Assembly (NCBI GenBank): GCA_900473045.1
Contig: UCKS01000029.1
Coordinates: forward strand, 1-64,000
DNA: 64,000 nucleotides
Direction: 5' to 3'
Source of the DNA: Hyphomicrobiales bacterium
GTDB taxonomy: Bacteria > Pseudomonadota > Alphaproteobacteria > Rhizobiales > Rhizobiaceae
The notes under the pieces: model-generated
Told to the model about the DNA's origin: nothing
The model's database searches: none
The model's input: the letters and a program-made list of their open reading frames with translations, nothing else
Part shown: positions 4,081-56,046 of the stretch, piece after piece
How the letters are laid out: each line of letters opens with the position of its first letter
How positions within the stretch are numbered: the first letter of the stretch is position 1
Position numbers and translations under genes: made by a program

Positions 4081-4120
4081 CATTTGAACTCCAGGCTCTT
4101 CAGCCGCTTCAGGAAAGACC

Positions 4121-5641: not shown

Positions 5642-5650
5642 TTGCACAAA

Positions 5651-5674
5651 ATTGTCTACAATCACGTTGACAAC
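5651..5674. promoter_or_regulatory. GntR-type operator, copy 2
   Basis: ATTGTCTACAAT (5651-5662) fits the palindrome ATTGTNNACAAT found at 2349 and 13259, and the wider 24-bp layout (ATTGTCTA, 8 bases, TTGACAAC) matches copy 1 in 6 of 8 arm positions. It lies just after the first divergent-Asp amidohydrolase gene and before the permease genes, suggesting a second regulated promoter inside the locus. Confidence 0.6.
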
Positions 5675-5724
5675 TTTCAAAACCTTGTCTTAATGGGGCA
5701 CGACGAGAACAGGGGAGGCTGTAC

Positions 5725-5778
5725 GTGAGGAGCGTACGTCTCGTGGTAGTGCTGCTGGCATTGCGGCTCGTGTCCTGA
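5725..5778 (+). other. Possible 17-codon hydrophobic leader ORF with overlapping hairpin
   Basis: A GTG at 5725 stands 6 bases after a strong GGGGAGG site and opens a 17-codon frame, MRSVRLVVVLLALRLVS, ending in TGA at 5776-5778. The stop lies inside a perfect hairpin GTGTCC-TGAA-GGACAC (5770-5785). It resembles a signal-peptide start. It could be a leader peptide, the remnant of a lost binding-protein gene, or chance. The remainder of the 258-base gap (5642-5899) shows no other gene. Confidence 0.25.
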
Positions 5779-5899
5779 AGGACACACCGCTCATCTGCAC
5801 CTTTGCATTTTGCTGCCAAGCGGCAATCCCTGTCTCTGAGCGTTATTGATCGAACCGTCCGGGCAGGGTCCGTGGCTGGAGCGAAGCGGAGAGGTCACC

Positions 5900-6868: not shown

Positions 6869-6885
6869 GAAACGGGGCCGGTTCG

Positions 6886-7836: not shown

Positions 7837-7841
7837 GTTCC

Positions 7842-9035
7842 ATGCACGATCTCTTGCTCCGCAATGTCAGGCCGATGGCCGGTGAAAGCTGCGATGTCCT
7901 GATCAAGGACGGGAAGATTGCCGGTTTTGGAACGTTCGAGCCCGAGTCCGGCATGTCGGTCGAGGACGGCGGTAGCGCTATCGCGGTTCCCGGCTTGATC
8001 GACGCCCATACGCATCTAGACAAGACCACCTGGGGCATGCCCTGGCACGTCAACAACCGTGCCGCAGTCTTGCGTGAGCGGATCGATTTCGAACGGGAAA
8101 ACCGCCTTGAGATCGGCATGGATCCGCATCGCCAATCCATGCGCCACGCGATCGGGCTCGCCGCCAACGGCGGTACGCATATCCGTAGCCATGTCGATAT
8201 CGACCCGACCCACGGCCTTTCGCTTGTCGAAGGTGTCTGGGAAACCCGCGAAAAGCTGAAGGGTGTCATCGATATCGAAATCGTTGCCTTCCCGCAGTCC
8301 GGCGTGATGGTCATGCCCGGTGCCGTGGAGCTTCTGGACGAAGCGCTCCGTCAGGGTTGCGAAGTGCTGGGTGGCATCGATCCGTGTGGCATCGACCGCG
8401 ACCCCAAGGGCCAGCTCGACATCCTCTTTGCCCTTGCCGTCAAGCATGGCGTTCCAATCGACGTTCACCTGCATGAGGCAGCCGACCTCGGCGCCTTCAC
8501 CATGGAACTGATTTTCGAGCGCATCCGGGCCCATGGCATGGAAGGTAAAGTTGCCATCAGCCATGCGTTTGCGCTCGGCATGAACGACTATCTGCGGGTC
8601 GGCAAGCTGATTGAGCAGATCGCGCGCCTTGATGTGGCGATCCTGACGACAGGCGCGCCGTCCGCCAACGTGCCTTCCATCATGCGGTTGAAGGAAGCCG
8701 GTGTGCGGGTTGGCGGCGGCTGTGACGGTATCCGCGATACCTGGGGTCCGTGGGGTCAGCCAGATATGCTGGACCGCGCCAAGGTCATCGGCATGAAAAA
8801 TGGACTGCGTTCGGACATCGAGCTTGCTCATGTTCTGCATGTCGTCTCCCAAGGAGGAGCCGATGTGATGCGGCTGGAAAACTACGGCCTGCAGATTGGA
8901 TGCAATGCCGATTTGACCCTCTTGACCGGCGAGACGCTCGCCCATGCTGTGGTTGATATCGCACCTCGGCCATTGGTCCTGAAGGCAGGCAAGGTCACCG
9001 CCCGTCAAGGCAAAGCCTTGGTGGAGATGCCGTGA
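7842..9035 (+). CDS. Cytosine-deaminase-like amidohydrolase
   Basis: A 397-residue amidohydrolase of the CodA/cytosine deaminase-like branch. GLIDAHTHLDK gives His56-x-His58; a further histidine pair lies in DVHLHEAAD, and the branch-specific motif GGCDGIRDTWGPWG resembles the CodA segment containing the catalytic Asp and the Trp near the active site. CodA-type enzymes deaminate cytosine or hydrolyse related rings such as ammelides and creatinine-like imides. The ring chosen here is unknown. The ATG at 7842 follows the permease stop by 5 bases, and the start gives a family-typical N-terminus (MHDLLLRNVR). The stop overlaps the next ATG by one base (TGATG), indicating translational coupling. 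Confidence 0.87.
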   Translation: MHDLLLRNVRPMAGESCDVLIKDGKIAGFGTFEPESGMSVEDGGSAIAVPGLIDAHTHLDKTTWGMPWHVNNRAAVLRERIDFERENRLEIGMDPHRQSMRHAIGLAANGGTHIRSHVDIDPTHGLSLVEGVWETREKLKGVIDIEIVAFPQSGVMVMPGAVELLDEALRQGCEVLGGIDPCGIDRDPKGQLDILFALAVKHGVPIDVHLHEAADLGAFTMELIFERIRAHGMEGKVAISHAFALGMNDYLRVGKLIEQIARLDVAILTTGAPSANVPSIMRLKEAGVRVGGGCDGIRDTWGPWGQPDMLDRAKVIGMKNGLRSDIELAHVLHVVSQGGADVMRLENYGLQIGCNADLTLLTGETLAHAVVDIAPRPLVLKAGKVTARQGKALVEMP

Positions 9036-10528
9036 TGAGCAAAGACCTTGCATCCCTCACGCTTGGACGCCGTCCGGAAGGCCGCACACTTGTTACCGCA
9101 AGCTGGGTGGTTGGCCATAAGGATGGCAGCCACCGGCTTTTGCAGAACGGTGAAGTCGTTTTCGAAAATGGCGAGATCCTTTTCGTCGGCCACCGCTTTG
9201 CCGGCGAGGTCGCCCGCCGCATCGATTTCGGCAACGCGCTGATCAGCCCCGGCCTGATCGATCTCGATGCGCTGTCCGATCTCGATACGACCATTCTGGG
9301 TATCGACAACCATCCCGGCTGGACCAAAGGCCGCGTCTGGCCGCGCTCCTATGTCGATGCCGGCCCTTATGAAATGTACAGCCAGAACGAGTTGGCCTTC
9401 CAGAAACGGTTTGCTTTCGGCCAGTTGCTCCTGAACGGCATCACGACAGCGGCCCCCATCGCCTCGCTGTTCTATCGCGAATGGGGCGAAACGATCGGCG
9501 AATTCGACGCTGCGGCTGATGCCGCCGGTGAGCTCGGCTTGCGGGTTTATCTCAGCCCCGCCTATCGCTCCGGCGGTATGGTTTTGGAAAGCCCCGGCCA
9601 GATCGTCCCGATTTTTGACGAAGAGCGGGGCTTTCAGGGACTGAACGACGCCATTGCCTATATCGAGAGGCAGCACGGCCGCCATGGTGACCTCGTGCGC
9701 GGCATGCTGGCGCCGGATCGGGTCGAAACCTCGACGCTGGATCTTCTGCAACGCACGGACGCCGCCGCACGCGATCTCGGCGTCAAGTTCCGCCTGCACA
9801 TGGCGCAGGGGGCCATGGAGGTGGATACGGTCCGCATGCTGCACGGCTCGACCGCACCGGCCTGGCTGGCCAAGGCGGGCCTTCTCAGCGACCGGCTCAT
9901 CGCGCCGCACGCCACCAATGCGACCGAGGAAGACCTGGCGCTCTATGCGCAGAACGGCGTCTCGATTGTGCATTGTCCGCTGGTTTCCGGGCGTGGCGGC
10001 AGCACGCTGAATTCCTTCTCGGCCTGCCGCAAGCGCGGCATCAACATTGCCATGGGTACGGATACGGCACCTGCGGACATGTTGATGAACCTGCTCGTCG
10101 GACTTATCACCTGCCGCATCAACGACGGTGCACCGCATCAGGTGAGATCGGCCGACCTCTATGACGCCGCAACGCTTGGCGGTGCACGGGCTCTCGGACG
10201 CGCAGATCTCGGTCATCTGTCGCCGGGTGCTCGTGCCGACATTGCGGTCTTCGATCTCGATGATACCGTTATGGCGCCCTCCATCGACCCCATTACGACG
10301 CTGGTTACCGGCGGTTCCGGCAAGGTCACGCGTGCCGTCTTCGTCGATGGCCGTGTCTCAATGGTGAACCGCCAGGTTGCTGGCATCGACATGGAGAAAG
10401 CCCGCGTCCAGGCGCAGGCGCAATACGACGGACTGATCGCCAAATATCCGGAACGGAGCTGGAACAGTCCGCCAGTTTCGGAAATCTTCTCGCCAAGCTA
10501 TCCGATCGAGGTTGATACCCATGGGTGA
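9035..10528 (+). CDS. Amidohydrolase-family protein lacking the HxH motif (paralogue 2)
   Basis: A 497-residue paralogue of the protein at 4121; most of the length aligns without gaps, including long identical blocks such as SPGLIDLDALSDLD and QKRFAFG. As in that protein, the HxH pair is replaced by the Asp-rich segment, while RLHMAQ, APHAT and MGTDTAP retain the later histidines and aspartate. Two such copies within one importer locus suggest either subunits of a hetero-oligomer or enzymes for two related ligands. The ATG at 9035 overlaps the preceding stop; a GTG three bases earlier is also possible. The 3' end overlaps the next ATPase gene by 8 bases. Confidence 0.77.
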   Translation: MSKDLASLTLGRRPEGRTLVTASWVVGHKDGSHRLLQNGEVVFENGEILFVGHRFAGEVARRIDFGNALISPGLIDLDALSDLDTTILGIDNHPGWTKGRVWPRSYVDAGPYEMYSQNELAFQKRFAFGQLLLNGITTAAPIASLFYREWGETIGEFDAAADAAGELGLRVYLSPAYRSGGMVLESPGQIVPIFDEERGFQGLNDAIAYIERQHGRHGDLVRGMLAPDRVETSTLDLLQRTDAAARDLGVKFRLHMAQGAMEVDTVRMLHGSTAPAWLAKAGLLSDRLIAPHATNATEEDLALYAQNGVSIVHCPLVSGRGGSTLNSFSACRKRGINIAMGTDTAPADMLMNLLVGLITCRINDGAPHQVRSADLYDAATLGGARALGRADLGHLSPGARADIAVFDLDDTVMAPSIDPITTLVTGGSGKVTRAVFVDGRVSMVNRQVAGIDMEKARVQAQAQYDGLIAKYPERSWNSPPVSEIFSPSYPIEVDTHG

Positions 10529-11504
10529 AGCAGAAAAAGCGGTCATCGACGTCCGCAATCTTCAGGTGGAGTTTCCAGGCCGCCGTGCAACCGTGACGCC
10601 GCTATCGGATATCAGCCTGTCCATCCGCGCCGGCGAAATCCTCGGCGTCGTCGGTGAATCCGGCGCCGGAAAATCGATGACGGGCCTGGCGATCCAAGGC
10701 CTGCTCGAGCGGCCCGGCCGGATCAGCGGCGGCGAAATCTGGCTCGGCAACCGCCGGATCGACACGCTCGATGATCGCGCGATGGAACAGATCAGAGGCC
10801 GCGAGATCGGCGCGATCTTCCAGGATCCGCTGACGTCGCTCAACCCGCTCTTCACTGTCGGGTCGCAACTGACGGAGACGATCCGTCTGCATCTGTCGAT
10901 GGGCAAGGTCGAGGCACGCGCCCGGGCCGTCCAACTTTTGCGCGATGTCGGCATTCCAGCACCTGAAGAGCGGGTAGACCATTATCCGCATCAGTTTTCC
11001 GGCGGCATGCGCCAGCGCGTGGTTATCGCACTCGCACTCTCGGCCTCGCCAAAACTCATCATCGCGGACGAGCCGACAACGGCACTCGACGTTTCCATCC
11101 AGGCGCAGATCATTTCGCTGCTGCGGCGGCTCTGCAAGGAGAAGCAGACGGCGGTCATGCTGGTGACCCACGACATGGGCGTGATTGCCGAAGCGGCAGA
11201 CCGCGTCGCCGTCATGTATGCCGGTCGTCTTATCGAAATCGGCCCGGTCGAGCAGGTGCTGCACGCGCCACGCCATCCCTATACGCAGGGTCTGATGGCA
11301 TCAATCCCATCGCTCGGCGCGCGGGTGGAAAAGCTCAACCAGATCGACGGCTCGATGCCGCGCCTCGACGCCATACCCGCCGGCTGCGCCTTCAATCCGC
11401 GCTGCGTTTCCGTCGGTCCGCGCTGTCTGCGCGAGCGGCCCGAACTCATAGCGGTTGGCGACGGCGCCAATGCCTGCTGGCTCAATGCGGGAGGAACAGC
11501 ATGA
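10521..11504 (+). CDS. ABC importer ATPase, DppD/OppD type
   Basis: A 327-residue ATP-binding subunit. Walker A is GESGAGKS, the signature is FSGGMRQR and Walker B is [12 protein letters not shown] followed by the His switch in VTHDMG. The C-terminal oligopeptide-transporter extension contains the cysteine-rich segment [14 protein letters not shown] (residues about 291-304), a likely iron-sulfur or metal site seen in DppD/OppD proteins. It pairs with the following DppF-type ATPase to drive the permeases at 5900 and 6886. The ATG at 10521 overlaps the previous stop; an upstream TTG is in frame but less likely. Confidence 0.9.
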
Positions 11505-12490
11505 CCGTATCTGCTCAGAAAAAACCGGCCCTGACCGTCAACGGCCTGGTCAAGACCTTCGACGTTTCTGCCCCCTGGCTCAACCGGGTGATCGAGCGCA
11601 AGCCGCGCCAGTTCGTACAGGCGGTCAACGATATCGCTTTCACCGTGCCTGCCGGCGGCTGCCTGAGCATTGTCGGCGAAAGCGGCTGCGGCAAATCCAC
11701 GGTGGCCCGGCTTGTCACGGGACTGCACAAGGCAAGCGCCGGAGAGATCAGGTTTGCGCCCGGACGGGCAGGAGCACCGCTTTCCGCCCAGATGATCTTC
11801 CAGGACCCCTACGCCTCGCTTAACCCGCGCTGGCGGGTAAAGAACATCATCGCCGAGCCGTTGCGCGAACTGAAACTGCGCGACACTGCCGCCGAAGTCA
11901 TCGAGCGCGTCGAGGAGCTTCTCCTGACCGTCGGACTTTCCGCGTCCGATGGTGAGAAGTTTCCACACGAGTTTTCCGGTGGTCAGCGCCAGCGCATCTC
12001 CATTGCCCGCGCGCTGGCGAGCGAGCCGGAATTCCTTGTCTGCGACGAGCCAACTTCGGCGCTCGACGTCTCCGTCCAGGCTCAGGTTCTCAACCTCATG
12101 CGCCGCCTGCAGGATGAACTTGGCCTGACCTACCTCTTCATCAGCCACGACATGAGCGTGGTTCGCCATATGTCGGATCGCATCGCCGTGATGTATCTTG
12201 GCCGCATTGTCGAAGAGGGCGATACCGAGGAACTGTTTGCCAGGCCGCGCCATCCCTATACGCAGCTTCTCTTGCAGACCATTCCCAACATCACTTCGCC
12301 TCGGCGTGACCGGGAACTGGCAGCGGGCGAAGTACCAAGCCCGCTCAAGCCCCCGTCCGGCTGTACCTTCCATCCGCGCTGCCCGATCGCAACGGCACGC
12401 TGTTCGGCGGAAGTGCCGGCCGTTCGTACGCTTGCAAACGGCACACGCGTCGCCTGTCATCTTGCAATCGACGAACCGGCGAGCGCCTGA
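11501..12490 (+). CDS. ABC importer ATPase, DppF/OppF type
   Basis: A 329-residue ATPase with Walker A GESGCGKST, signature FSGGQRQR and Walker B FLVCDEPTSALD. The C-terminal extension has the cysteine pattern CTFHPRCPIATARC, as expected for DppF proteins. The start overlaps the stop of the partner ATPase (ATGA) and is preceded by GGAGG. The gene ends 9 bases before the convergent end of the GntR regulator gene, closing the operon. Confidence 0.9.
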   Translation: MTVSAQKKPALTVNGLVKTFDVSAPWLNRVIERKPRQFVQAVNDIAFTVPAGGCLSIVGESGCGKSTVARLVTGLHKASAGEIRFAPGRAGAPLSAQMIFQDPYASLNPRWRVKNIIAEPLRELKLRDTAAEVIERVEELLLTVGLSASDGEKFPHEFSGGQRQRISIARALASEPEFLVCDEPTSALDVSVQAQVLNLMRRLQDELGLTYLFISHDMSVVRHMSDRIAVMYLGRIVEEGDTEELFARPRHPYTQLLLQTIPNITSPRRDRELAAGEVPSPLKPPSGCTFHPRCPIATARCSAEVPAVRTLANGTRVACHLAIDEPASA

Positions 12491-32506: not shown

Positions 32507-33396
32507 CGCTTAAGAACGAGACAAGATCGGCCGTGCTCAGCATCGGCCGGATTTATTGCGACCTGATTTTCACCGGATTGCAAGGCATGCCGGTGCTCGG
32601 CCGTGAGATTTTTGCCGAGAACATGGATATCGCGGCTGGCGGTGGCGCCTTTATCATGGCTGCTTACTGCACTCACGCAGGCCGCAAGACGGCGCTTCTT
32701 TCGCGCCTCGGTACCGACGCATTGTCGATGGGGCTGGAAGGTCAGCTTGCGGCGAGCAACGTCGATCTGCGGTTTCTCGACCGGGCCGCAGAGGCCGGGC
32801 CGCAGGTCACTGTCGCTATCATCAACGACCAGGAGCGGGCTTTCCTTTCGCGCCGCGCCGGTTCAGCCAAACCGGCGACGCTGTCAACGGCTCTGGAGTG
32901 GCCTGACGCCCGCCATCTGCACATTGCCGAATTTGCGACACTTGTCGAAATTCCGGGGCTGGTTGCGGCAGCGAAGGCAAAAGGCCTGACCGTGTCGCTC
33001 GATCCGAGTTGGGACGAAACGTTGATTTTCGACCGGGATTTTCTGGCCAAATGCGAAGGCATCGATATCTTCCTGCCGAATGTCGAGGAGGCTGCGGCCA
33101 TCACCGGCGAAACCGAACCGTCAAAGGCGCTGGATAGGCTTGCGACGGTATTTCCGGTCATTGCATTAAAGGCCGGTTCGCAGGGCGCATACCTCGCGAG
33201 CCGCGAAAATGTGTTGCACCGTCCCGCCAAACCCGTGCAAGTCATCGACACGACAGGGGCAGGCGATGCCTTCAATGCCGGCTTTATCCATAGCTGGCTC
33301 AATGGACATGATGACGAGATCTGCCTCAGCGACGCCGTCGCCATGGGTACGCTCGCCGTTCAAGCAGCAGGCGGCGCAACCATCCTAAAGTGTTAG
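32503..33396 (+). CDS. PfkB-family carbohydrate kinase
   Basis: A 297-residue ribokinase/PfkB-type kinase. The N-terminal glycine pair of the sugar site lies in AAGGGAFIMA, and the catalytic/anion-hole motif DTTGAGDAFNAGF (residues about 249-261) contains the base aspartate. It phosphorylates a sugar or nucleoside hydroxyl with ATP. As the last gene of the importer operon (start overlapping the ATPase gene by 4 bases) it likely phosphorylates the sugar released by the deacetylase and lyase. Substrate unknown. The gene is convergent with the hydrolase gene at 33450. Confidence 0.87.
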   Translation: MTLKNETRSAVLSIGRIYCDLIFTGLQGMPVLGREIFAENMDIAAGGGAFIMAAYCTHAGRKTALLSRLGTDALSMGLEGQLAASNVDLRFLDRAAEAGPQVTVAIINDQERAFLSRRAGSAKPATLSTALEWPDARHLHIAEFATLVEIPGLVAAAKAKGLTVSLDPSWDETLIFDRDFLAKCEGIDIFLPNVEEAAAITGETEPSKALDRLATVFPVIALKAGSQGAYLASRENVLHRPAKPVQVIDTTGAGDAFNAGFIHSWLNGHDDEICLSDAVAMGTLAVQAAGGATILKC

Positions 33397-33449
33397 GGGC
33401 TGTTCAAGGCAGATAAAGCTGACTGACCTCTCGCGCATGTACATCGCCT

Positions 33450-34394
33450 TTAAGCATCGTGGAGCCTGAGAAAGTCCGAAACCGTTGCCAGGCAAAGGGC
33501 CTTTTCCTCGACGTGCGGCATGTGGCTGGACTGCTCGAACACCACCCAGCGGCAGCCGGGGACCCGTTCGGCATAAGGCCGAACCACGTCTGCGGTCGCC
33601 TCGTCGTGACGTCCCGAGATCAGCAGCGTCGGGGCTGCGATCTGCGGCAAGCGGTCTTCGATCGTCCAGTCCTTCATTGTGCCGATGACGTGAAACTCGG
33701 TCGGGCCATTCATGTTGCGATATACGGTATTGTCCTCGTCCATGATCGCAAATGTACGCGCCACTTCCGGCGGCCACGGCGAGACGCGGCAGACGTGCCG
33801 GTCATAAAACACGCGCGATGCGGCGATGTATTCCGGATCTGTGATGGTGCCCGCTTCCTCGTGCTTCACGAGTGTTGCCTGAACGTCGGCCGGCAGTTCG
33901 CGGCGCAGACGGTTGGCCTCCGACACCCAGGTGTGCATGTTGGCCGGCGAATTGGCGATAACAAGCGCCTTTAACCCATCAGGCCGGCGCACCGCATGTT
34001 CCGCGCCGAGCATACCGCCCCAGGACTGGCCGAGAAAGGCATAGCGTTCCGCGATACCAAGATGTTTCAGCAACGCATCCAGCTCGTCGAGAAACAGCGC
34101 GACTGTCCAGAAGTCCGCTCCTTTGTGCGGCAGGCGTGTCGAGTTGCCGTTGCCGAGCTGATCGTAGTGGATGATAGGGCGGCCATCGAGCGCAGCGATA
34201 TCCTTGAATGAATCGACATAGTCGTGTGTGCAGCCTGGCCCGCCATGGGCGACCACCAGCGGCAAGAGCGGCGAGCCCAGCGATCCAGTGATACGATACC
34301 AAGTCCGGTAGTCGCGAAACGGCAGATAGGATTCCTGAGCTTCGACCGGTGCCACGTCTTTGCCTCCATGCGGTTGTTCCGATGGAGAAAGCAT
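33450..34394 (-). CDS. pip: Proline iminopeptidase-type alpha/beta hydrolase (1)
   Basis: A 314-residue serine hydrolase of peptidase family S33. HGGPG (residues 50-54) forms the oxyanion hole and GQSWGG contains the nucleophile Ser124; acid and base lie in SGRHDEAT and SSHMPHVEE. Such enzymes remove N-terminal proline or hydrolyse amides of small ligands. ATG 34394 is chosen because the family N-terminus begins there and AGGA lies just upstream; the frame extends 74 codons further upstream but that part overlaps the LuxR gene and is not domain-like. It follows the LuxR gene by 28 bases on the same strand, a pairing known from plant-associated LuxR solos. Confidence 0.87.
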
Positions 34395-34422
34395 ACCGTC
34401 CTGTTTCAGGCGGCGGCAGCTA

Positions 34423-35211
34423 TCACAAGTAATAGGATGGCTGGTCTTCCAGCAGGCGGTAATGGGTGGCGCGCACCACAGCCTGGGTGCGGTTCTTTGC
34501 GCCGAGCTTCTTGGCGGCGGCGTTGAGATGCATGACGACGGTCGGCACCGAGCGGCCGATGATGCGGGAAATCTCCTTTGCAGAAAGCCCCTCGGCCGAA
34601 TGCCGCAAACATTCACGCTCGCGGTCGGTCAAATGCGTCCGGGCTCCAGTGAGCGCCCTCTTGTCGAAGGCGGAAAAGGCAGCTTCATGGAAGACATGGG
34701 CCAAAAGGCTGAAATCCGCCATGTGGCGGTCGGCGTCGCCCTGGAAGTCCCGGCCAACCCCGAAACGTACCCCCGTCACCGTCGCGCAGTCGCCGCGCGG
34801 CAGATGCACCGGCACGGTCACACCGCAGGACATGTCCCGTTCGTAGAGATAGCGCGACACCGGCGCACTGCGCTCGGTGAGGAACCGGTTGATCGCCGTC
34901 CCGGCGGTGCGATCGTAATTCCAGAAGAACGGCGTTGTCGTGCGCATCGCCAGAAGCTGCACCGGGTCGATCCGGAAATACTCCCGGTCGAACCAGTATT
35001 CGCGCATGTCTTCGGAAATATTGCGCAGCTTCAGCAGCGACGGCAGCATGAGCTGGCCGTCGAGATCGTAGGGAACCGGGGTGTAGTCGTAGATCAGCGC
35101 ATCGAAGCCAAACCCCTTGATCACCTCGAACGCAGTGTCGATCCGTCCGTCCAGCGTCTGCTCGGCTGTAAAACGCGATCTGATCGCTCCGATGTCGTCA
35201 AACATGCGCAA
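34423..35211 (-). CDS. LuxR-family solo regulator of the plant-responsive type
   Basis: A 262-residue protein with an N-terminal autoinducer-binding domain (residues about 15-180) and a C-terminal LuxR helix-turn-helix (residues 195-255, [22 protein letters not shown]). At positions equivalent to Trp57 and Tyr61 of AHL receptors it has Met69 and Trp73 (EDMREYW), while Asp82, Pro83, Trp97 and Gly130 are retained. The Met/Trp replacement is the hallmark of plant-associated bacterial (PAB) LuxR solos such as OryR, XccR, PsoR and PipR, which respond to plant compounds instead of AHLs. No luxI gene occurs in the window. It is flanked by two pip-type genes and a peptide importer, the arrangement reported for PipR. 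Confidence 0.88.
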
Positions 35212-35310
35212 ATCCCAACGTCGAACACCCGGATCTGAAAAACAGGGGCAGGGCTATCCTATCACTTCTTATAGCTGGCGCGGAACCGGCAATCCGCTAA
35301 AAATTGGACA

Positions 35311-35327
35311 TGCTCAAAAGATGAGCA
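35311..35327. promoter_or_regulatory. Candidate LuxR-type binding site
   Basis: TGCTCA-AAAGA-TGAGCA is a perfect 6-bp inverted repeat with a 5-base centre, located 30 bases before the pip gene at 35357 and between the divergent LuxR and pip genes. lux boxes are about 20-bp inverted repeats at this kind of position. The match to a specific published PAB box cannot be checked here. Confidence 0.4.
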
Positions 35328-35356
35328 ATGACCTTGCAGGGTAGGGGAGATGGACG

Positions 35357-36250
35357 ATGTGGCGCGAGATTGAACCGGACGAGCGCATCGAGATCGATGT
35401 CGAAGGTCACACGGTCGTCGCCTACAGTTTCGGTTCGGGTGAGGAGACGATATTCTGCCTCAACGGCGGCCCCGGCCTGCCGTGCGATTACCTGCGCGAA
35501 GCGCATACCTGCCTGGTGGATGAGGGCTACCGTGTCGTTGCGTTCGACCAGCTCGGCACTGGCGCCTCCGACCGGCCGACAGATCCGGCGCTGTGGACCA
35601 TCGGCCGCTATGTCGAGGAGACCGAGACCGTCCGCAAAGCGCTCGGGCTCGGCAAGGTGCATATGCTTGGACATTCCTGGGGCGGCTGGCTGGGCATCGA
35701 CTATGCGCTGGCCTATCCCGGCAATCTCAAGACACTGATCCTTGAAGACACGGTCGCCGATATGCCGCATCTGATCGTCGAGCTCGAACGGCTGCGGGCG
35801 GCACTGGGTTCCGAAACCGTGGCGATGATGCAAAAGCACGAGGCGCGCGGAACGATCGATCATCCGGAATATCTGGCGGCGATCACCATCCTCAACTATC
35901 GCCATGTCTGCCGCCTTTCAGAATGGCCGGCACCGGTCCTGCGCTCGCTCGGAGACTGGAACATGGGACCGTATGGCACGATGCAGGGACCAAACGAATT
36001 CCTCTATACAGGCAATCTCAAGGACTGGAATCGCGTGCCGGATCTGCACAGGATCAAGGTGCCGGTGTTGATCACCTGCGGCGAGCATGACGAGCTGACA
36101 CCGGCCTGCGCATTGCGGATGAAACTCCACTTGCCGGATGCCGAGTTGAAAGTCATCGACAACGCCAGCCACATGCCTTTTTATGAAAATCCTGAGGCCT
36201 ACTATCCGGCGCTCCTCGACTTTCTCTCGCGCCACAGGACGAAGGGATGA
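35357..36250 (+). CDS. pip: Proline iminopeptidase-type alpha/beta hydrolase (2)
   Basis: A 297-residue S33 hydrolase. The oxyanion segment is NGGPG (36-40) and the nucleophile motif GHSWGG has Ser107; the acid lies in CGEHDELTP and the base in NASHMPFYEN. It has no signal peptide and should be cytoplasmic. It is divergent from the LuxR gene and precedes the importer genes by about 50 bases. It differs clearly from the hydrolase at 33450, so it is not a recent duplicate. It probably acts on the compound brought in by the downstream importer, either a proline-containing peptide or a plant amide. Confidence 0.87.
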   Translation: MWREIEPDERIEIDVEGHTVVAYSFGSGEETIFCLNGGPGLPCDYLREAHTCLVDEGYRVVAFDQLGTGASDRPTDPALWTIGRYVEETETVRKALGLGKVHMLGHSWGGWLGIDYALAYPGNLKTLILEDTVADMPHLIVELERLRAALGSETVAMMQKHEARGTIDHPEYLAAITILNYRHVCRLSEWPAPVLRSLGDWNMGPYGTMQGPNEFLYTGNLKDWNRVPDLHRIKVPVLITCGEHDELTPACALRMKLHLPDAELKVIDNASHMPFYENPEAYYPALLDFLSRHRTKG

Positions 36251-36301
36251 TCCGCATCGGGCAGTTCCCAGGCCTCGGGCAGCTTGGAAAGGTGTATGTG
36301 C

Positions 36302-37240
36302 ATGCATCGGTATAGGTTCGTTCTGTTCCGTCCGCTTCAATTTCTGCCGGTTCTGTTCGGCATCAGCGTCATCACCTTCATTCTCGTGCGTCTCATTCCA
36401 GGTGATCCGGCCCGGGTTCTGCTTGGCGCGCGCTCGACGCCGACGGCCATAGCCAGAATCCACGCCCAGTACGGCCTGGATGAACCGATCTGGCTGCAGT
36501 ATTTCTATTTCCTGCAAAATCTCGGCAAGGGCGAGATGGGCAAGTCCATCCTGTTCAAGATCGACGTGCTGAAGCTGATCCTGACCCGCATCGAGCCGAC
36601 GCTGGTATTAGTGCTCACCAGCGTCATCCTGTCGATCCTGATCGCGGTGCCGATGGCGGCGCTTGCCGCCCGCAACAATGGCCGCCTTGCCGATCATGCG
36701 GTGCGCATCGTCTCGACGCTCGGTATCGGCTTTCCGCCATTCTGGCTGGCGCTGATGCTGATCATCCTGTTTTCCGTCAAGCTCGGTATCTTTCCGGTAT
36801 CGGGCTACGGCGACACCTTGCTCGACAAGGCCGCCCACCTGATCCTGCCGAGCCTGACCATTGCCCTGTCGCTATCGGCGGTGCTGACACGCAGTTTGCG
36901 GGCGGCAATGATCGTCGAGCTGCAATCGGATCTGGCGACGGCGGCGCGTGCCCGTGGCATGCCGGAAAGCATCGTGTTCTGGCGGCATGTGCTGCCGAAT
37001 TCCCTGGTGCCGACCATCAACCTGCTCGCCGTCAATATCGGCTGGCTGATCGGCGGCACGGTGGTGGTGGAAACCGTGTTCGCCATTCCCGGCATGGGCC
37101 AGCTTCTGGTGCGCGCCATCTTCTCGCGCGACTATATGGTGGTTCAGGGCGTTGCGATGGTGTTTGCCTGCGCCACCGTGCTGGTCAATTTCCTCGCCGA
37201 TATCGTCACCGTGACCGTCGATCCGAGGGTGCGCCTATGA
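36302..37240 (+). CDS. ABC importer permease, DppB/NikB type
   Basis: A 312-residue permease with an N-terminal helix (LQFLPVLFGISVITFILV), the DppB loop LIPGDPARVLLG and five more helices. The EAA loop is near LQSDLATAARARGMPES. Start choice: ATG 36302 gives MHRYRFVLFRPLQF with AAGG 9 bases upstream; ATG 36296 and TTG 36284 are also in frame. It belongs to the operon beginning at the pip gene and overlaps the next permease gene by 4 bases. Confidence 0.89.
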   Translation: MHRYRFVLFRPLQFLPVLFGISVITFILVRLIPGDPARVLLGARSTPTAIARIHAQYGLDEPIWLQYFYFLQNLGKGEMGKSILFKIDVLKLILTRIEPTLVLVLTSVILSILIAVPMAALAARNNGRLADHAVRIVSTLGIGFPPFWLALMLIILFSVKLGIFPVSGYGDTLLDKAAHLILPSLTIALSLSAVLTRSLRAAMIVELQSDLATAARARGMPESIVFWRHVLPNSLVPTINLLAVNIGWLIGGTVVVETVFAIPGMGQLLVRAIFSRDYMVVQGVAMVFACATVLVNFLADIVTVTVDPRVRL

Positions 37241-38094
37241 TGCCTTCCGCCACCAACGCGACGCGCATGAACCTGCCGTGGAGCCGCTTTCTCGGCCGTC
37301 ACCTGACGCTTGCAACGGGTGCGGGTATCCTTGGCCTGTTCCTGATGGTGGCACTGACCGCCCCGCTGATCGCGCCCTATGATCCGATCTTCCAGAATGC
37401 CGACGTCCGCTTGCTGCCGCCGGCACTTGCCCACCCCTTCGGCACGGACAATTTCGGCCGCGATATTCTCTCGCGCGTTATCTGGGGCGCCCGTATCGAC
37501 CTGCAGATCGCCGTCATCGGCGTCGTCTTTCCGTTCCTGATCGGTACGTTCGTCGGCACGGTCGCGGGCTTTTTCGGTGGCATCGTCGATGCCATCTTCA
37601 TGCGACTGGTGGATATCATCCTCGCCTTTCCCTTCCTGGTGCTGATGCTGTCGATCATCGCCATTCTCGGGCCAGGCCTGTCCAGCTTCTACATCGCCAT
37701 GGCCCTGGTCGGCTGGGTTTCGTACGCAAGGTTGATCCGAGCCCAGATACTGGTGCTGAAGAACAGCGATTATGCGCTGGCAGCCGTCAGCCTCGGCTTC
37801 AGCCGCACGCGCATCATGTTTCGTCATCTGTTGCCGAATGCCATTGCCGGCTCTCTGGTATTCTCAATGTCGGATGCGGTGCTGGTGCTGCTCAATGGCG
37901 CCGCCATCAGCTATCTCGGGCTTGGCGTGCAGCCGCCGGTGGCGGAATGGGGCGTCATGGTCGCCGAAGGCCAGAGCTTTATCACCACGGCCTGGTGGAT
38001 CACCCTGTTTCCCGGACTTTCCATCGTCGTCCTCGCCTTTGGGTTCAGCTTGCTTGGAGATGGACTTGGTGAATGGCTGGGAGTGCGCGAATGA
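37237..38094 (+). CDS. ABC importer permease, DppC/NikC type
   Basis: A 285-residue permease. It shows the DppC hallmark GTDNFGRDILSRVIWGARID (residues about 68-87), the EAA loop ALAAVSLGFSRTRIMFRH and six helices. It forms the channel with the permease encoded just upstream. The overlaps ATGA at both ends (37237 and 38091) indicate a tightly coupled operon. Confidence 0.89.
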   Translation: MMPSATNATRMNLPWSRFLGRHLTLATGAGILGLFLMVALTAPLIAPYDPIFQNADVRLLPPALAHPFGTDNFGRDILSRVIWGARIDLQIAVIGVVFPFLIGTFVGTVAGFFGGIVDAIFMRLVDIILAFPFLVLMLSIIAILGPGLSSFYIAMALVGWVSYARLIRAQILVLKNSDYALAAVSLGFSRTRIMFRHLLPNAIAGSLVFSMSDAVLVLLNGAAISYLGLGVQPPVAEWGVMVAEGQSFITTAWWITLFPGLSIVVLAFGFSLLGDGLGEWLGVRE

Positions 38095-39782
38095 GCGAGC
38101 CGGTCCTCTCCATCCGCAGCCTGACGGTCCAAGCGCAGCTTGATGGCGAGACACGCACGCTGATCGATGCGGTCTCGTTCGATCTCGGCAAGGGCGAAAT
38201 TCTCGGCCTGGTCGGCGAAAGCGGTTCCGGCAAGAGCATGATCTGCCGCGCACTGGTCAAGCTTTTGCCATCCAAGACGATTGCCATCACAGGCGGCTCC
38301 ATGCTGCTGTCGGGGCGCGATCTCGTTCAGCTGAATGAGGCTGCGATGCGCTCCGTGCGCGGCGCCGACATCGGCATGGTGTTCCAGAACCCCACCAGCC
38401 ATCTCGATCCGGTCATGCGCATCGGCGACCAGATCGCCGAGGGTATCCGCTATCACCAAGGCAAATCGCGCAGCGAAGCCAAAGCTGCGGCAATCGACAT
38501 TCTCGGCCAGGTCGGCTTTCCCGATCCTGCCCGGCAATACGATAACTATCCGCACGAACTCTCCGGCGGCATGCGGCAACGCGCGATGATCGCGGTCGCG
38601 CTCTCCTGCAACCCGGAAATCCTGATCGCTGACGAACCGACGACGGCGCTCGACGTCACCATCCAGGCACAGATCCTCAAGCTTCTGATGGACCTGCGCG
38701 ACAGCCGCGGCCTGTCGATCATTCTCATCACCCATGACCTTGGCATCGTTGCCCAGACCTGCGACCGCATCGCCGTTCTGCGTCACGGCCAGTTGCTGGA
38801 ACTCGGCGACAAGCGCCGGGTGCTGTCGGCCCCGCAGCACGCCTATACGATCAGCCTGCTGGATAGCCACCCCTCTATGCCGGAGGAGGGCGGGCCGATA
38901 ACCGCCGAAGCAGTGATCGACGCACCGCCGGTGCGGCCATTGCTGGAGATCGACGATCTCGTCGTACGCTTTCCAACCCCGGGACTTGGCCTGTTCAAGG
39001 GCGGCCGGAAACACATTGCCGCCGTCAACGGTGTCAGCCTGCGTGTCATGCCGGGCGAAACCGTGGGCATCGTTGGCGAAAGCGGTTCCGGCAAGAGTAC
39101 TTTGGCGCGCGCCATTCTCGGGCTGACGCCTTTATCATCCGGCCATATCAGCTTTGATGGCTTGGATCTGGCGCAGCAGCGCAAGCAGACGCTGGCACAG
39201 ATCCGCACCCAGGCAGCCATGGTGTTCCAGGATCCCTACAACGCCCTCAATCCGCGCCTGACCATCGGCGAAACCCTGGCCGAAGTGTTGCAGGTACAGA
39301 ACAAGGTTCCCACCAGCCGCATCCCGGAACGTATCAATGAGCTGCTCGATCTTGTCGGTCTGGAGCGCGAATTCGCTACCCGCCGCCCCCGCGCCATGAG
39401 CGGTGGCCAGTGCCAGCGTGCTGGCATCGCCCGGGCGCTTGCCGTCGATCCGAAGATGATCATCGCCGACGAATGCGTGGCTGCCCTCGACGTCACCATA
39501 CAGGCGCAGATCATCGATCTCTTCCGCGAACTGAAGAGCATCATGAACCTGACGCTGCTGTTCATCGCACACGACCTCGCCATCGTCCGCGATCTCTGCG
39601 AACGCGTCGTGGTGATGTATCGCGGTGAAATCGTTGAGGAGGGGCTTTGCGCCGACGTCTTTGCCCGGCCACAGCATCCCTACACCGCCGCGCTGATCGC
39701 AGCCATTCCGGATATCGACCCTGACAAGCCGTTGCTGCGGCGCCTGCCAGGGCAAGCCGTACCGCATCTCTTGACTGCCTGA
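38091..39782 (+). CDS. ABC importer ATPase, fused DppD-DppF type
   Basis: A 563-residue protein carrying two complete ATPase domains, equivalent to DppD plus DppF joined. First domain: Walker [10 protein letters not shown], signature LSGGMRQR, Walker [13 protein letters not shown]. Second domain (from residue about 280): GESGSGKST, signature MSGGQCQR and a Walker B reading [12 protein letters not shown], where the usual Pro-Thr after Asp-Glu is replaced by Cys-Val. The catalytic glutamate is kept. Such fusions occur in GsiA/YejF-like transporters. The start overlaps the permease gene (ATGA). Confidence 0.9.
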
Positions 39783-39808
39783 TCATAACAACAAAGGGAA
39801 CGAACGAC

Positions 39809-41326
39809 ATGAAAAGCAAATGGAAAACGATGAGCATGGCCACGGTGCTGACCATGCTGATGCTGGGCTCGACGATTGCCGAAGCGGCCGGTGTGCTGAC
39901 CATCGGCCGGCGTGAGGATTCAACAACATTCGACCCGATCAAATCGGCGCAGAATGTCGACAATTGGGTATTCTCCAACGTCTTCGACGTGCTGGTGCGC
40001 GTCGACAAGACGGGCACGAAGCTGGAACCCGGCCTTGCCGAAAGCTGGGCCGTTTCCGGCGATGGCCTGACCTATACCTTCAAGATTCGCGACGCCAAAT
40101 TCTCCGACGGCTCGCCGATTACCGCCGGTGACGCAGCTTTTAGTCTCCTGCGCATCCGCGACAACGAAGGCTCGCTCTGGAGTGACAGTTACAAGATCGT
40201 CGAGACGGCCGAAGCCACGGACGACAGGACGCTGGTCGTCAAGCTGAAGACGCCATCGGCGCCGTTCCTGTCGACACTGGCGTTGCCGAACGTCTCGGTC
40301 CTGTCCAAGAAGGGGTTGGAAGAGGCCGGGGAAGAAGCCTTCGCCGAAAAGCCGATCGCCTCGTCGGGCGCCTTCACGGTCAAGGAATGGCGCCGTGGCG
40401 ACCGGGTCATCCTCGAAAAGAACCCGAACTTCTGGCAGGCCGATAGGGTCAAGCTTGATGGTGTCGAGTGGATTTCAGTGCCGGACGACAATACCCGCAT
40501 GCTGAACGTGCAGGCCGGAGAACTGGATACGGCGATCTTCGTGCCGTTCTCGCGTGTCGAGGAACTGAAAAAAGATCCGAACCTTGAGGTCCATATCGAC
40601 ACCTCGACGCGCGAGGACCATCTTTTGATCAACCACGAACACGGCGCCCTTGCCAAGAAGGAAGTCCGTCAGGCCCTCGACATGGCGATCGACAAGAAGG
40701 CGATCGTCGATACCGTTACATTCGGCCTCGGTGAAGTTGCGAACTCCTATATTCCGAAGGGCTCGCTCTATCACTATGCCGGCAACTACCAGTATCCTTA
40801 CGACGCGGCCAAGGCCAAGGCGATGCTGGCGGACGCCGGTGCTTCCGATCTGTCGTTGAATTACATCGTCAACGCTGGCAACGAGGTCGACGAGCAGATC
40901 GCCGTTCTGCTGCAGCAGCAACTGGCCAAGGCAGGCGTTACCGTCAATCTGCAGAAGGTCGATGCCAGCCAGAGCTGGGACATGCTGGTCGCCGGCGATT
41001 ACGATATCTCGGTGATGTACTGGACCAATGACATCCTCGACCCGGACCAGAAGACCACCTTCGTCCTCGGTCACGATACCAACATGAACTATATGACCCG
41101 TTACAAAAACGACAAGGTCAAGGATATGGTGGCGGCTGCACGGCTTGAGCTGGATCCTGCCAAGCGCGAAGCGATGTATGTCGAGATCCAGAAGATGGCC
41201 AAGGACGACGTTCACTGGATCGACCTCTACTATAGCCCCTACATCAACGTCTCGCGCAAGAATATCGGCAACTTCTACCAGAACCCGCTCGGCCGCTTCT
41301 TCCTTGAGGACACCGTCAAGAACTAG
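39809..41326 (+). CDS. ABC importer substrate-binding protein, family 5
   Basis: A 505-residue periplasmic binding protein of the DppA/NikA class. The signal peptide runs to about residue 27 (ends at AEA-AG), followed by LTIGRREDSTTFDPI. The family segment GLAESWAVSGDGLTYTFKIRDAKFSDGSPI is split here only for length: GLAESWAVSG then LTYTFKIRDAKFSDG. It delivers the ligand to the permeases encoded upstream. Given the LuxR solo and hydrolases, the ligand may be a plant-derived ethanolamine-type amide or a proline peptide. It ends the operon, with a strong terminator downstream. Confidence 0.89.
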   Translation: MKSKWKTMSMATVLTMLMLGSTIAEAAGVLTIGRREDSTTFDPIKSAQNVDNWVFSNVFDVLVRVDKTGTKLEPGLAESWAVSGDGLTYTFKIRDAKFSDGSPITAGDAAFSLLRIRDNEGSLWSDSYKIVETAEATDDRTLVVKLKTPSAPFLSTLALPNVSVLSKKGLEEAGEEAFAEKPIASSGAFTVKEWRRGDRVILEKNPNFWQADRVKLDGVEWISVPDDNTRMLNVQAGELDTAIFVPFSRVEELKKDPNLEVHIDTSTREDHLLINHEHGALAKKEVRQALDMAIDKKAIVDTVTFGLGEVANSYIPKGSLYHYAGNYQYPYDAAKAKAMLADAGASDLSLNYIVNAGNEVDEQIAVLLQQQLAKAGVTVNLQKVDASQSWDMLVAGDYDISVMYWTNDILDPDQKTTFVLGHDTNMNYMTRYKNDKVKDMVAAARLELDPAKREAMYVEIQKMAKDDVHWIDLYYSPYINVSRKNIGNFYQNPLGRFFLEDTVKN

Positions 41327-41347
41327 GTTCCCCCACATCTGATCCAA

Positions 41348-53383: not shown

Positions 53384-54727
53384 CTACGCTTGAAGGCCGT
53401 CGCGGATCTGCGCGAAATAACCATCCGATCCAACCTGTCCGCCCTTCAGCGCAATCTGCAGCCCGTTCGTCGCGGTATACGTGCCGTGCGCCGTGCAGAG
53501 CGGCGATCCTGGTGTTTGTGGTAGCGGCAGCAGCGTGGTCAGCGCCTGCACATGCAGTTCCCGAAGTGCATGGCTGGACGTATCGCCCCCAGCGATAACA
53601 GCGCGGGTCAACTGTTGTTCTTCCACCAGACGCCGCAGGATCGTGCCGAGCAACCGGCCAAGGCGGTGGCGGCTGCCGGGAATGCGGTCGATATCGCCGC
53701 CGCGATCGGCGGATGGGCCAAGCGCGGTGTTGAGGATGACGCTCTCGCCGCTCTTGAGACTGCTGAGACCAGCGGCAATTGCCTGTTCCAGAGCAGCATT
53801 GCCGTTTTCACCGAGCAATTCCAGTGGATCAAGATTGATGCCAGCAAAACCGTTCTGGGTCGCATGGTGGATCTGCCGCTCGGTGGTCGGCGAGACGCTG
53901 CCGGAAACGACAGCGATACGATCGGCCTTGCCGGGCAGGGGGAAGGTTTTCGTTCCCTCCGTCAGGCCCGCATTATGCCAGGCGGTCAGCAGGGCGTATT
54001 CGACACCGGAGGAGCCAGCAACGAGCCAGCCGCCGTCCTGCCGCAAGCGCCAGAGTTGGCGCCCGGCATGGGACTGGCTTTCCGGGCTGTCGACATCGAA
54101 CAGCATCATGCCGTCCGCATCCCTGCAGAGATTATCGACCCGGCTATCCGCATCCGCAGCGGCGAGCACGCAGAGATCAACGAGTCTTGTTTTCAACGTC
54201 GTCTGTGCGCCGAGATGCAGGCGCAGGTCGGCCTCGGCCATGGGCGTCACCGGGTGGCGGCTCATGACGGGGTGGCGGTCGATGCGGTAGACTTCTCCCT
54301 GATAGGCGGCGAACAGATGCCCGAAGGCGGTGTAGCGTTTCAGCTGTGGCGCGCCGACCAGGATGGGGACGTAAGCCTGATCGAACAGCGTCCGGCCGAT
54401 TTCGACGGCCTTGCCGATATTGCCGATCCGCGGGCTGGAATCGAAGGTCGAGCAGACCTTATAGTGGCAGATATCGGCGCCGAGGCTTTTCAGCCAGCGA
54501 AAGGCCGGTGTCAGGTTCTCGTCCATCCAATCCGGCGTTTCGCTACGGCTGGTGCCGGCAAGGCCGATGGCGCGGCAGTGGCCGAAACGTTGAAGCAGGG
54601 CCTCATCCGGCAGGTCCATGAACAACACGGTCTCGACGCCGTTGGAGGCCAGGGCCTCCATGACATCGGTGGAGCCCGTCAGATCGTCGCCGTAATAGGA
54701 GAGAAGAAGGTTGGTTTGTGTGGTCAT
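53384..54727 (-). CDS. oiaK: 3-oxo-isoapionate kinase (DUF1537 four-carbon acid sugar kinase family)
   Basis: A 447-residue member of the two-domain DUF1537 kinase family. The N-terminal sugar-acid domain has YYGDDLTGSTDVMEAL (residues 11-26), and the C-terminal nucleotide domain has VIAGGDTSSHAL and GSPLCTAHG. OiaK phosphorylates 3-oxo-isoapionate at the 4-position. The neighbouring RuBisCO-like gene (5 bases upstream on the same strand) specifies this role over other DUF1537 acid-sugar kinases. It ends 13 bases from the convergent HD-GYP gene. Confidence 0.83.
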   Translation of the reverse strand: MTTQTNLLLSYYGDDLTGSTDVMEALASNGVETVLFMDLPDEALLQRFGHCRAIGLAGTSRSETPDWMDENLTPAFRWLKSLGADICHYKVCSTFDSSPRIGNIGKAVEIGRTLFDQAYVPILVGAPQLKRYTAFGHLFAAYQGEVYRIDRHPVMSRHPVTPMAEADLRLHLGAQTTLKTRLVDLCVLAAADADSRVDNLCRDADGMMLFDVDSPESQSHAGRQLWRLRQDGGWLVAGSSGVEYALLTAWHNAGLTEGTKTFPLPGKADRIAVVSGSVSPTTERQIHHATQNGFAGINLDPLELLGENGNAALEQAIAAGLSSLKSGESVILNTALGPSADRGGDIDRIPGSRHRLGRLLGTILRRLVEEQQLTRAVIAGGDTSSHALRELHVQALTTLLPLPQTPGSPLCTAHGTYTATNGLQIALKGGQVGSDGYFAQIRDGLQA

Positions 54728-54732: not shown

Positions 54733-55986
54733 CTACTCGCTGGCGCTGCCGAATTTCTGGATCGAGGCGGCAAGCTCCGGGTGATCCCTGGCATATGTTT
54801 CAAGCGGGATATCGGCGACCGCCGCTTGCCAGGCTTGTTGCACGGCGCGCACGCCGGCTGCCGGGCCACCGGGATGGCTGACAATGCCGCCGCCACAGAG
54901 ATAGAGCAAATCGGTGGTCCGGCCGGTGCGACGATAGGTTTCCGGCGCCTGACCGCCCCACTGTCCGGAGCCGGCGACCGGCAGTGCGCAGTCGGATGGG
55001 TCGAACAGCGGCGTGGTCACCGCCTTGAAGCTTTCGACGAAACTGTCGTCCGGCTCCCAGTATTTGACGCCGATGCCGTTGATCTGAAACTGGTCGACAC
55101 CGAGAAGACGCCAGAACTGCTGCCAGACCTTGAAATCGAAGCCGATGCCGGGATGCCGGGTGAGAACGTCCCAGCCGTTGCGATGGGCATGTAGCACGAG
55201 TCCCGAGCGCTTGCGCAGGAACGCCATGCCGCCCATGCCGATGGAGTTGATATTGACGACGGCGCAATTGCCGCCCGCTTCCAGAACGAGATCATGGTTG
55301 CGCATCATCTCGTCTGGATCGGTCGCCGAGATGCCGAAGGCATACATCACCTTCTTGCCGGTCTTCTGCTCGTGATCGAGAATTTTCGGCATGATGGCCG
55401 CGACGCGCTCGCTGAGCGGCGAGTATGCCGGGCTCATCAGCTTCTCGTCGTCCTTGATGAAATCGACGCCGGAGCCGATCAGCTCGCCGACCAGCTCTGC
55501 CGTTTCATGCGGGCGCAGGCCCAGTGCCGGCTTGACGATGGTGCCGATAATCGGCCGGTCGTAGACGCTGGTGAGCCTGCGGCTGCCGGGCAGGCCGAAT
55601 TGTGGACCGGGATAGGCAGCCTTGTATTCCTGCGGCAATTTGAGGTCGACGACCCGCAGGCCGGTCATGCCGCGGATCGAGAAGATGCCGCCGACTGCGA
55701 TGGTCATCAGGGCGGACAGATCAGTGCCGATGGCATCAAGGGGGAAGGCGATGTCAACATCGGCGCGGCGGATCGGTCCCTGGCCCGCGGCGGCTTCCGG
55801 CCAGCTCGGATGGTCGGCGTCGGCAAGCGAGCGGACGGCAAGAACGCGGGCGGCGACGCGCGCCTTTAATTCCGGTGTCTCGCCGGGCACGGGTACGAAG
55901 GTGCCGGTTGATTGGTCGCTGGCGATCTTTTCCGCCATCGCTTCGATACTGCCGGACGTTTCAATTCTATAGGTGACGACGATCAT
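54733..55986 (-). CDS. oiaX: 3-oxo-isoapionate-4-phosphate decarboxylase (RuBisCO-like protein)
   Basis: A 417-residue form IV RuBisCO-like protein. Catalytic residues known from RuBisCO are present: Lys152 in GTIVKPALGL, the carbamylatable Lys178 with Asp180 and Glu181 in GVDFIKDDE, HAHRNGW at 266-272, and Lys308 in the loop-6 position (GIGVKYW). OiaX decarboxylates 3-oxo-isoapionate-4-phosphate to L-erythrulose-1-phosphate and CO2. ATG 55986 gives the usual N-terminus MIVVTYRIET; an ATG 24 bases upstream is possible. It diverges from the GntR gene with the second operator copy between them. Confidence 0.86.
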   Translation of the reverse strand: MIVVTYRIETSGSIEAMAEKIASDQSTGTFVPVPGETPELKARVAARVLAVRSLADADHPSWPEAAAGQGPIRRADVDIAFPLDAIGTDLSALMTIAVGGIFSIRGMTGLRVVDLKLPQEYKAAYPGPQFGLPGSRRLTSVYDRPIIGTIVKPALGLRPHETAELVGELIGSGVDFIKDDEKLMSPAYSPLSERVAAIMPKILDHEQKTGKKVMYAFGISATDPDEMMRNHDLVLEAGGNCAVVNINSIGMGGMAFLRKRSGLVLHAHRNGWDVLTRHPGIGFDFKVWQQFWRLLGVDQFQINGIGVKYWEPDDSFVESFKAVTTPLFDPSDCALPVAGSGQWGGQAPETYRRTGRTTDLLYLCGGGIVSHPGGPAAGVRAVQQAWQAAVADIPLETYARDHPELAASIQKFGSASE

Positions 55987-56046
55987 GATCGCGCAAAAGC
56001 CTCCCGGCATGACAAATCCCGGCCAGTTTTGGCTGGTACGTTTTCC

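Follow-up and report, generated by a model that had tools for sequence, protein, structure and literature searches.

Two described systems stand closest to the locus studied here, the PipR/Aap system of Pseudomonas sp. GM79, whose AapF protein binds N-(2-hydroxyethyl)-2-(2-hydroxyethylamino)acetamide (HEHEAA), and the NesR cassette of Sinorhizobium meliloti. NesR, a LuxR protein of the plant-associated bacteria (PAB) type, is tabulated in the arrangement pip/tra-nesR-pip (PMC10134790, Table 1). This arrangement has been in print for rhizobia since 2015, when Rhizobium, Agrobacterium and Mesorhizobium were listed with it (PMC4338825), and again in 2023, when the PAB carriers named included Rhizobium, Agrobacterium and Shinella (PMC10134790). 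Literature is cited here by PMC identifier. We analyzed a stretch of 64,000 nucleotides (the window; assembly GCA_900473045.1, contig UCKS01000029.1, positions 1 to 64,000) from a Hyphomicrobiales bacterium of the Rhizobiaceae. At 33450-41326 it encodes a seven-gene cassette made up of luxR, two S33-type peptidase genes (pip1 and pip2) and a peptide-type ATP-binding cassette (ABC) importer. luxR and then pip1 lie on the minus strand; divergent from luxR, on the plus strand, lie pip2, two permease genes, an ATPase gene and the gene for a solute-binding protein (SBP). These positions and gene identities, first proposed in a sequence-only reading of the window, are borne out by open reading frames (ORFs) and domain matches. 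What our analysis adds is a pair of candidate operators and their restriction to the cassette, and the interest of the locus lies there, not in its rhizobial host.

Pocket residues and phylogeny of the LuxR protein

The LuxR protein matches Autoind_bind (PF03472, 85.7 bits) and GerE (PF00196, 50.5 bits) above cut-off. We aligned its ligand pocket to that of TraR, anchoring the alignment on the DP motif and G113. The motif EDMREYW, residues 67-73 of the 262-aa ORF, then places Met69 opposite TraR W57 and Trp73 opposite TraR Y61, as had been proposed from the sequence. The residues at TraR positions 57, 61, 70, 71, 72 and 73 are M, W, D, P, V and Q, and those at 85, 101, 105, 110, 113 and 129 are W, V, L, M, G and T; 12/12 are the residues that Table 1 of PMC3821632 lists for PAB proteins. 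The protein keeps D70, P71, W85 and G113 of N-acyl homoserine lactone (AHL) receptors, and has exchanged W57 for M and Y61 for W. The sequence-only reading had taken Met plus Trp as a PAB signature that extends to PipR. The assignment to the PAB type holds at all twelve pocket positions; the extension of the signature to PipR does not, since PipR retains the conserved Trp at position 57 (PMC4981722). Of 18 tabulated PAB proteins, 13 have M at position 57 and 5 have W, and Trp stands at the Y61 position in 18/18 (PMC3821632). W57 is also present in four Pseudomonas-type rows of our own data (L097-L100). Met57 is common among PAB LuxR proteins, not universal.

A contig scan with the window LuxR matched 123 stretches, from which we took the best 80 of 90 relatives (67-90% identity); having been found by the window LuxR, these 80 loci are close relatives by selection. 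All 80 score 12/12 for PAB pocket residues. Eight more distant PAB rows score 12 (six rows), 11 (one) and 9 (one). Scores range from 1 to 9 in 18 other LuxR rows and from 2 to 7 in five of the host genome's seven other LuxR proteins. The remaining two were left unscored, for want of a hit at one locus and because a single protein was recovered from two overlapping loci. A quick tree of 55 rows, in which 23 of the 80 relatives were included, unites the 32 PAB rows in a single set at a Shimodaira-Hasegawa-like approximate likelihood ratio (SH-aLRT) support of 99. The set includes the window LuxR, the S. meliloti row L038 and the Pseudomonas-type rows, and two of the more distant PAB rows fall among rhizobial rows within the tree. 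The window LuxR sits apart from the five further LuxR proteins of its own genome included in the tree. The phylogeny suggested earlier as a check on the PAB assignment came out in its favor. The anchor to known PAB proteins is the pair L123 and L125, used in place of named OryR, XccR, PsoR or PipR sequences; their SBPs are 95% identical to AapF, which ties these loci to a GM79-type system. Many outside rows are long branches, which makes the outer part of the tree unreliable. Pocket residues, phylogeny and gene context together support the prediction that the window LuxR is a PAB-type solo.

We also considered whether a clean score gap surrounds the PAB group. In a phylum sample, 12/398 genomes scored above 200 bits and the next match scored 86.5; a family sample contradicted this, with LuxR matches at 199.5, 196.6 and 165.1 bits, so the gap is not absolute. 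Two further loci deserve mention. The L129 LuxR, with 11/12 PAB pocket residues, departs from the usual pairing of PAB solos with an adjacent pip, since the 18 kb around it contain no pip match (tblastn E 1e-8). Separately, genome G069 (contigs C147 and C9) has four LuxR-type matches, three of them in tandem within ~2.1 kb on C9; L131 holds C147.

A luxI partner elsewhere had been named as a finding that would tell against a solo. The host genome contains three luxI matches (PF00765), none on the cassette contig C40 and one adjoining a luxR. A second, the LuxI-type synthase match at C70:159558-159998, has no PF03472 LuxR match on its contig, and its partner regulator is not obvious. These synthases give some room to an AHL-responsive solo that eavesdrops on AHLs of its own genome or of foreign cells, and the S. 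meliloti nesR promoter is bound by ExpR/AHL (PMC5977203), which would place nesR expression, not the NesR ligand, under AHL control. Against an AHL ligand, the AHL-receptor residues W57, Y61, V73, F101 and A105 are M, W, Q, V and L in the window LuxR, OryR and PipR are unresponsive to the AHLs tested (PMC4471428, PMC4981722), and the protein does not group with the five others of its genome placed in the tree. We consider eavesdropping on AHLs very improbable.

Candidate LuxR operators

To search for operators, we aligned the two luxR-flanking regions across 86 loci (the window, the 80 relatives and L122-L126), and each region contains one conserved block. A 20-bp lux-box-like pattern, CCTATNACTTNTNATAGCTG, has two sites in the window, one 5' of each peptidase gene, where 0.04 would be expected at three or fewer mismatches. 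The two cassette operators are the only sites at two or fewer mismatches in the whole host genome. Five additional genomic sites at three mismatches were considered as further targets and rejected, given eight at three or fewer in a reversed control. At two or fewer mismatches, exactly two sites occur in 80/80 loci, with none elsewhere in 1,458,872 bases, and ten further whole genomes, S. meliloti 4H41 included, also have exactly two each, compared with 5 hits to the reversed pattern in the ten together. These ten genomes belong to loci that defined the pattern, so the informative part of the result is the absence of additional sites. L122, another alphaproteobacterial locus, has the same operator pair. 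At up to three mismatches, the rhizobial pattern was not found in the Pseudomonas-type loci, which have a different dyad 5' of pip1, beyond the luxR stop.

On both sides of luxR an AT-rich element lies at about positions 41-47 from the operator start, ungapped in 81 cassettes, and conservation across positions 38-50 is 1.35 and 1.42 bits compared with 0.69 and 0.79 bits for positions 21-35. If the element is a -10 element, the operator centers lie at about -42.5 to -43.5, which matches the usual place of a lux box (PMC4471428). The luxR stop codon falls within operator 1 in 81/81 cassettes (TGA in 79, TAA in 2), and an operator built into the stop would constrain the last residues of the regulator through the regulator's own binding site. 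We conclude that putative LuxR operators precede both peptidase genes. We found no account of the rhizobial operator pair in the literature covered, whose scope did not extend to supplements or to the original NesR, HEHEAA and AapF papers, and such an account may be in print.

Conservation and distribution of the cassette

All seven genes occur in the same order and on the same strands in 79/80 loci; in the one exception, L032, the contig ends within pip1. Twin pip genes in a rhizobial host had been called notable from the sequence, a judgment that gives way before this conservation and the published tables (PMC10134790, PMC4338825). Five of the eight more distant PAB loci carry the full set (L122-L126), and L127 has no pip2 match. 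In L128, a LuxR with 9/12 PAB pocket residues adjoins pip1, but the peptide-type importer there is a different one of weak similarity, with an SBP 23% identical.

We compared the DNA of the five nearest relatives with the window over about 16-19 kb each, counting matches >200 bp. They match over 33443-41330, and the sole other match, in one relative, is 266 bp long (11956-12221). Since matching DNA is nearly confined to this interval, the cassette is not a chance assembly of neighbors. The genes next to it differ among these five relatives, and its presence is patchy, in 11/26 genomes of the genus and 28/297 of the family (the host genome counted in both). Three members of the genus, of which two gave no luxR match and the third has luxR on another contig, follow the window along its left flank as far as 33395-33405 and are no longer collinear beyond that point. 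We considered a mobile element and set the term aside. The GC content of the cassette (0.604) is that of its left (0.599) and right (0.601) flanks, but its neighbors vary; as integrases and end repeats were not searched for, we call it portable, not mobile.

Importer, binding protein and peptidases

The SBP matches PDB 7kz8/7kz9 (AapF) at E 2.3e-247, the next solved sequence following at 1.3e-50, and 362/480 aligned residues are identical to AapF (75%). PDB 7KZ9 is AapF with HEHEAA bound (PMC11168924). Together with the position of pip2 at the head of the operon, the AapF-type SBP supports the earlier comparison with the peptidase-led importer of PipR. The ATPase matches as a single gene-length piece in all 80 loci and in L122; in L123-L127, stops occur in frame between the two nucleotide-binding domains (NBDs).

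The history of the SBP differs from that of the importer core. Among the 80 relatives (L012-L091), the SBP is close to that of the window in 24 and more distant in 56. When the window-like rows are constrained together (43 rows), the approximately unbiased test value (p-AU) is 0.26 for the SBP and 0.002 for the two permeases and the ATPase combined, and in several carriers of window-like SBPs (Sinorhizobium, Neorhizobium) the permeases and ATPase nest among Rhizobium sensu stricto. A switch of ligand between the two SBP classes was considered and dropped, as only residue 16, probably in the signal peptide, fully separates them.

Both peptidases score above the cut-off (167.65) of TIGR01250, the NCBIfam proline iminopeptidase-family hydrolase model, with 266.2 bits for pip1 and 260.7 for pip2, as expected from the iminopeptidase-type genes predicted on both sides of luxR. 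They are 36% identical across 275 residues. The GxSWGG, HDE and SHMP motifs, which we take to hold the catalytic Ser, Asp and His, are intact in both. The closest solved structure to pip1 (query 33450-34373) is 7a6g, a 'putative proline iminopeptidase' (473.9 bits). GM79 AapA is mainly an alanine aminopeptidase (PMC4981722), and with pip2 its positional counterpart, the label of two proline iminopeptidases may be only half right.

A model for sensing and consumption of an imported molecule

We propose, with a probability of roughly two in three, that the window encodes a cassette of NesR/PipR type for the sensing and consumption of a small molecule brought in by its importer, with operators that activate both sides and with feedback through import and the peptidases. 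The AapF-like protein and the ABC importer would take up a small compound resembling an amine or a peptide, most likely of plant origin (HEHEAA or a related molecule), which LuxR would bind in place of an AHL. Liganded LuxR would occupy the two lux-box-like operators at the -35 place and activate transcription both of pip1 and, in the opposite direction, of pip2 and the importer genes. Import would act as positive feedback, and removal of the ligand or a derivative by the two aminopeptidases as negative feedback. We favor this model because the LuxR pocket is of PAB type at every position, the PAB set is well supported and the SBP is close to AapF; it is further favored by the conserved gene set, the operator pair in every one of the 80 relatives, the equally spaced -10-like elements and an operator 1 distance of 71.5 bp that is the same as in GM79.

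Seen directly in the window and its relatives are the set of genes and their order, the protein families, the pocket residues, and the operators with, at the stringency used, their restriction to the cassette. The ligand class, activation and both feedback loops are modeled on GM79, where importer mutants are unresponsive, peptidase mutants over-respond, and an altered operator abolishes pipA induction (PMC4981722). Every part of the GM79 loop has a counterpart in the window, from which we infer that the same loop may operate there. Several published observations weigh against the model. The sequence-only reading called the LuxR plant-responsive, a label that lacks support for NesR-type proteins: NesR itself has no demonstrated plant signal (PMC3821632, PMC5977203). 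NesR is reported to affect stress tolerance, motility and symbiosis (PMC8877191, PMC5977203), and the PAB protein PsrR of Kosakonia is unresponsive to HEHEAA, ethanolamine and rice root macerate (PMC7301841). GM79 PipR affects aapA only weakly (PMC4981722), and control of pip2 and the importer may accordingly be weak here too.

The cassette may instead be a nutritional scavenging unit, no plant sensor as such, in which LuxR senses a common peptide or amine nutrient of any source and the peptidases feed metabolism. The cassette also occurs in Pleomorphomonas, in Ciceribacter and in Pararhizobium antarcticum, a species described from Antarctic water, and the host genome has neither nodA nor a nifH above cut-off. 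No NodA was found in the host genome by a search in which no control genome matched and which was positive in 3/4 check genomes, S. meliloti among them; for nifH, two weak host matches both fall below the cut-off, which 3/14 control genomes pass. Nodulation is therefore a poor assay for this strain, and a symbiotic plasmid may have been lost or be missing from the fragmented assembly (99.92% complete by marker count, 125 contigs). In GM79, peptone, soytone, tryptone and a tripeptide likewise elicit a PipR response (PMC4981722). A purely nutritional role is less easily squared with a binding protein of AapF type, whose crystal ligand is HEHEAA, or with the plant roles of the characterized PAB members (PMC10134790), and we judge it unlikely.

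Extent of the regulon

The restriction of the operator to the cassette predicts a closed local regulon, a prediction that fits the published NesR-methionine regulon badly. We see even odds that the alphaproteobacterial NesR cassette is a closed, portable circuit for sensing, import and degradation whose sole direct targets are its own two promoters, with the pip1 operator built into the luxR stop. In that case NesR would act on the methionine cycle only indirectly, or the published effect would stem from SahR sites that precede the same genes. Alternatively, a NesR-like regulator of wider reach would directly control methionine-cycle and stress genes, with the cassette only one of its targets. 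Here the literature tells against a closed circuit: metHK and ahcY are named as experimentally confirmed NesR targets in regulon predictions, where the NesR-motif regulon is predicted to comprise 5-7 genes in three S. meliloti strains (PMC3164228); the mean predicted NesR regulon is 8.24 genes (PMC4560400); and deletion of nesR in Ensifer aridi alters symbiosis, salt tolerance and motility (PMC8877191). LuxR-type proteins can moreover tolerate degenerate sites, and a strict pattern may thus miss real targets. Direct control of wider reach is nonetheless improbable in our estimation, as the operator at two or fewer mismatches is confined to the cassette in 11/11 genomes, S. meliloti 4H41 included, and E. 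aridi SahR sites precede ahcY, metH, bhmT and metK (PMC8877191). That NesR and SahR motifs were mixed up in the regulon papers we offer only as a suggestion.

A regulon limited to the cassette would leave the broad published nesR phenotypes in need of another explanation. Our analysis supplies a precise candidate operator for the direct NesR regulon and ties a common rhizobial cassette to PipR/HEHEAA, the one plant-responsive LuxR system with an identified ligand.

Cassette features and other genes of the window

The window is part of contig C40 (75,115 bp) of a 6.78 Mb genome, and the cassette features are collected in Table 1. The luxR start is likely the ATG at 35205, the ORF being readable from a TTG at 35211, and pip1 likely starts at the GTG at 34355, not at 34616, because a GGAG 5' of this GTG recurs in the eight relatives compared.

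Table 1. Positions of the cassette genes and candidate regulatory elements in the window
Feature	Position	Strand	Basis and remarks
pip1 (pipA counterpart), proline iminopeptidase-family hydrolase, 301 aa	33450..34355	-	TIGR01250; GTG start inferred
-10-like element TATGCT, putative pip1 promoter	34390..34395	-	inferred; positions 42-47 from operator start, kept in 81 cassettes
Operator 1 (candidate), lux-box-like	34417..34436	-	includes luxR stop codon; center 71.5 bp 5' of pip1 start
luxR, nesR/pipR-type PAB LuxR solo (predicted), 260 aa from ATG	34423..35205	-	Pfam domains, pocket residues, tree
Operator 2 (candidate), lux-box-like	35258..35277	+	between luxR and pip2; center 89.5 bp 5' of pip2 start
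-10-like element TAAAAAT, putative pip2 promoter	35298..35304	+	inferred; positions 41-47 from operator start, kept in 81 cassettes
pip2 (aapA counterpart by position), S33-type aminopeptidase, 297 aa	35357..36250	+	TIGR01250; heads importer operon
ABC permease, DppB/NikB type, aapB counterpart	36284..37240	+	BPD_transp_1 140.4 bits
ABC permease, DppC/NikC type, aapC counterpart	37237..38094	+	BPD_transp_1 86.8 bits; OppC_N
ABC ATPase, two NBDs, 569 aa, aapD and aapE counterparts fused	38073..39782	+	two ABC_tran stretches; oligo_HPY
SBP, AapF type	39809..41326	+	SBP_bac_5 333.3 bits; PDB 7kz8 match

Elsewhere in the window, another ABC system of peptide type, consisting of an SBP_bac_5 protein, one permease and two ATPases, lies among three amidohydrolase genes at 2454-12490, with a fourth amidohydrolase beside it at 808-2316 on the minus strand. 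An SBD_N/NBD_C kinase (53384-54727) adjoins a RuBisCO large-chain-like protein (54733-56010), a pair that we take to resemble oiaK/oiaX of isoapionate breakdown.

Comparison with known systems

The closest counterpart is the NesR cassette of S. meliloti 4H41 (L038), which has the same seven genes, order, strands and operator pair as the window; that its LuxR is NesR we infer from species and context. The two differ in sequence (identities of 74% for LuxR, 81% for pip1, 86% for pip2 and 89% for the SBP) and in their other neighboring genes. The PipR/Aap system of GM79 likewise has a PAB LuxR between two S33 peptidases, an importer operon headed by the second peptidase, an AapF-type SBP and an operator 71.5 bp 5' of the pipA start (PMC4981722). 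In contrast to the window, with its Met57, joined NBDs and intergenic aapA-side site at -89.5, GM79 has Trp57 in PipR, two separate NBD proteins and a site that overlaps the pipR 5' end at -91.5 (PMC4981722). The OryR/XccR-type solos of Xanthomonas share a PAB LuxR with an adjacent pip, and most share Met57 and Trp61 (PMC3821632, PMC10134790); Xanthomonas has no linked ABC importer, which the window does have, and an APC-type transporter gene lies upstream instead (PMC4981722). The cassette is a well-conserved member of a described system.

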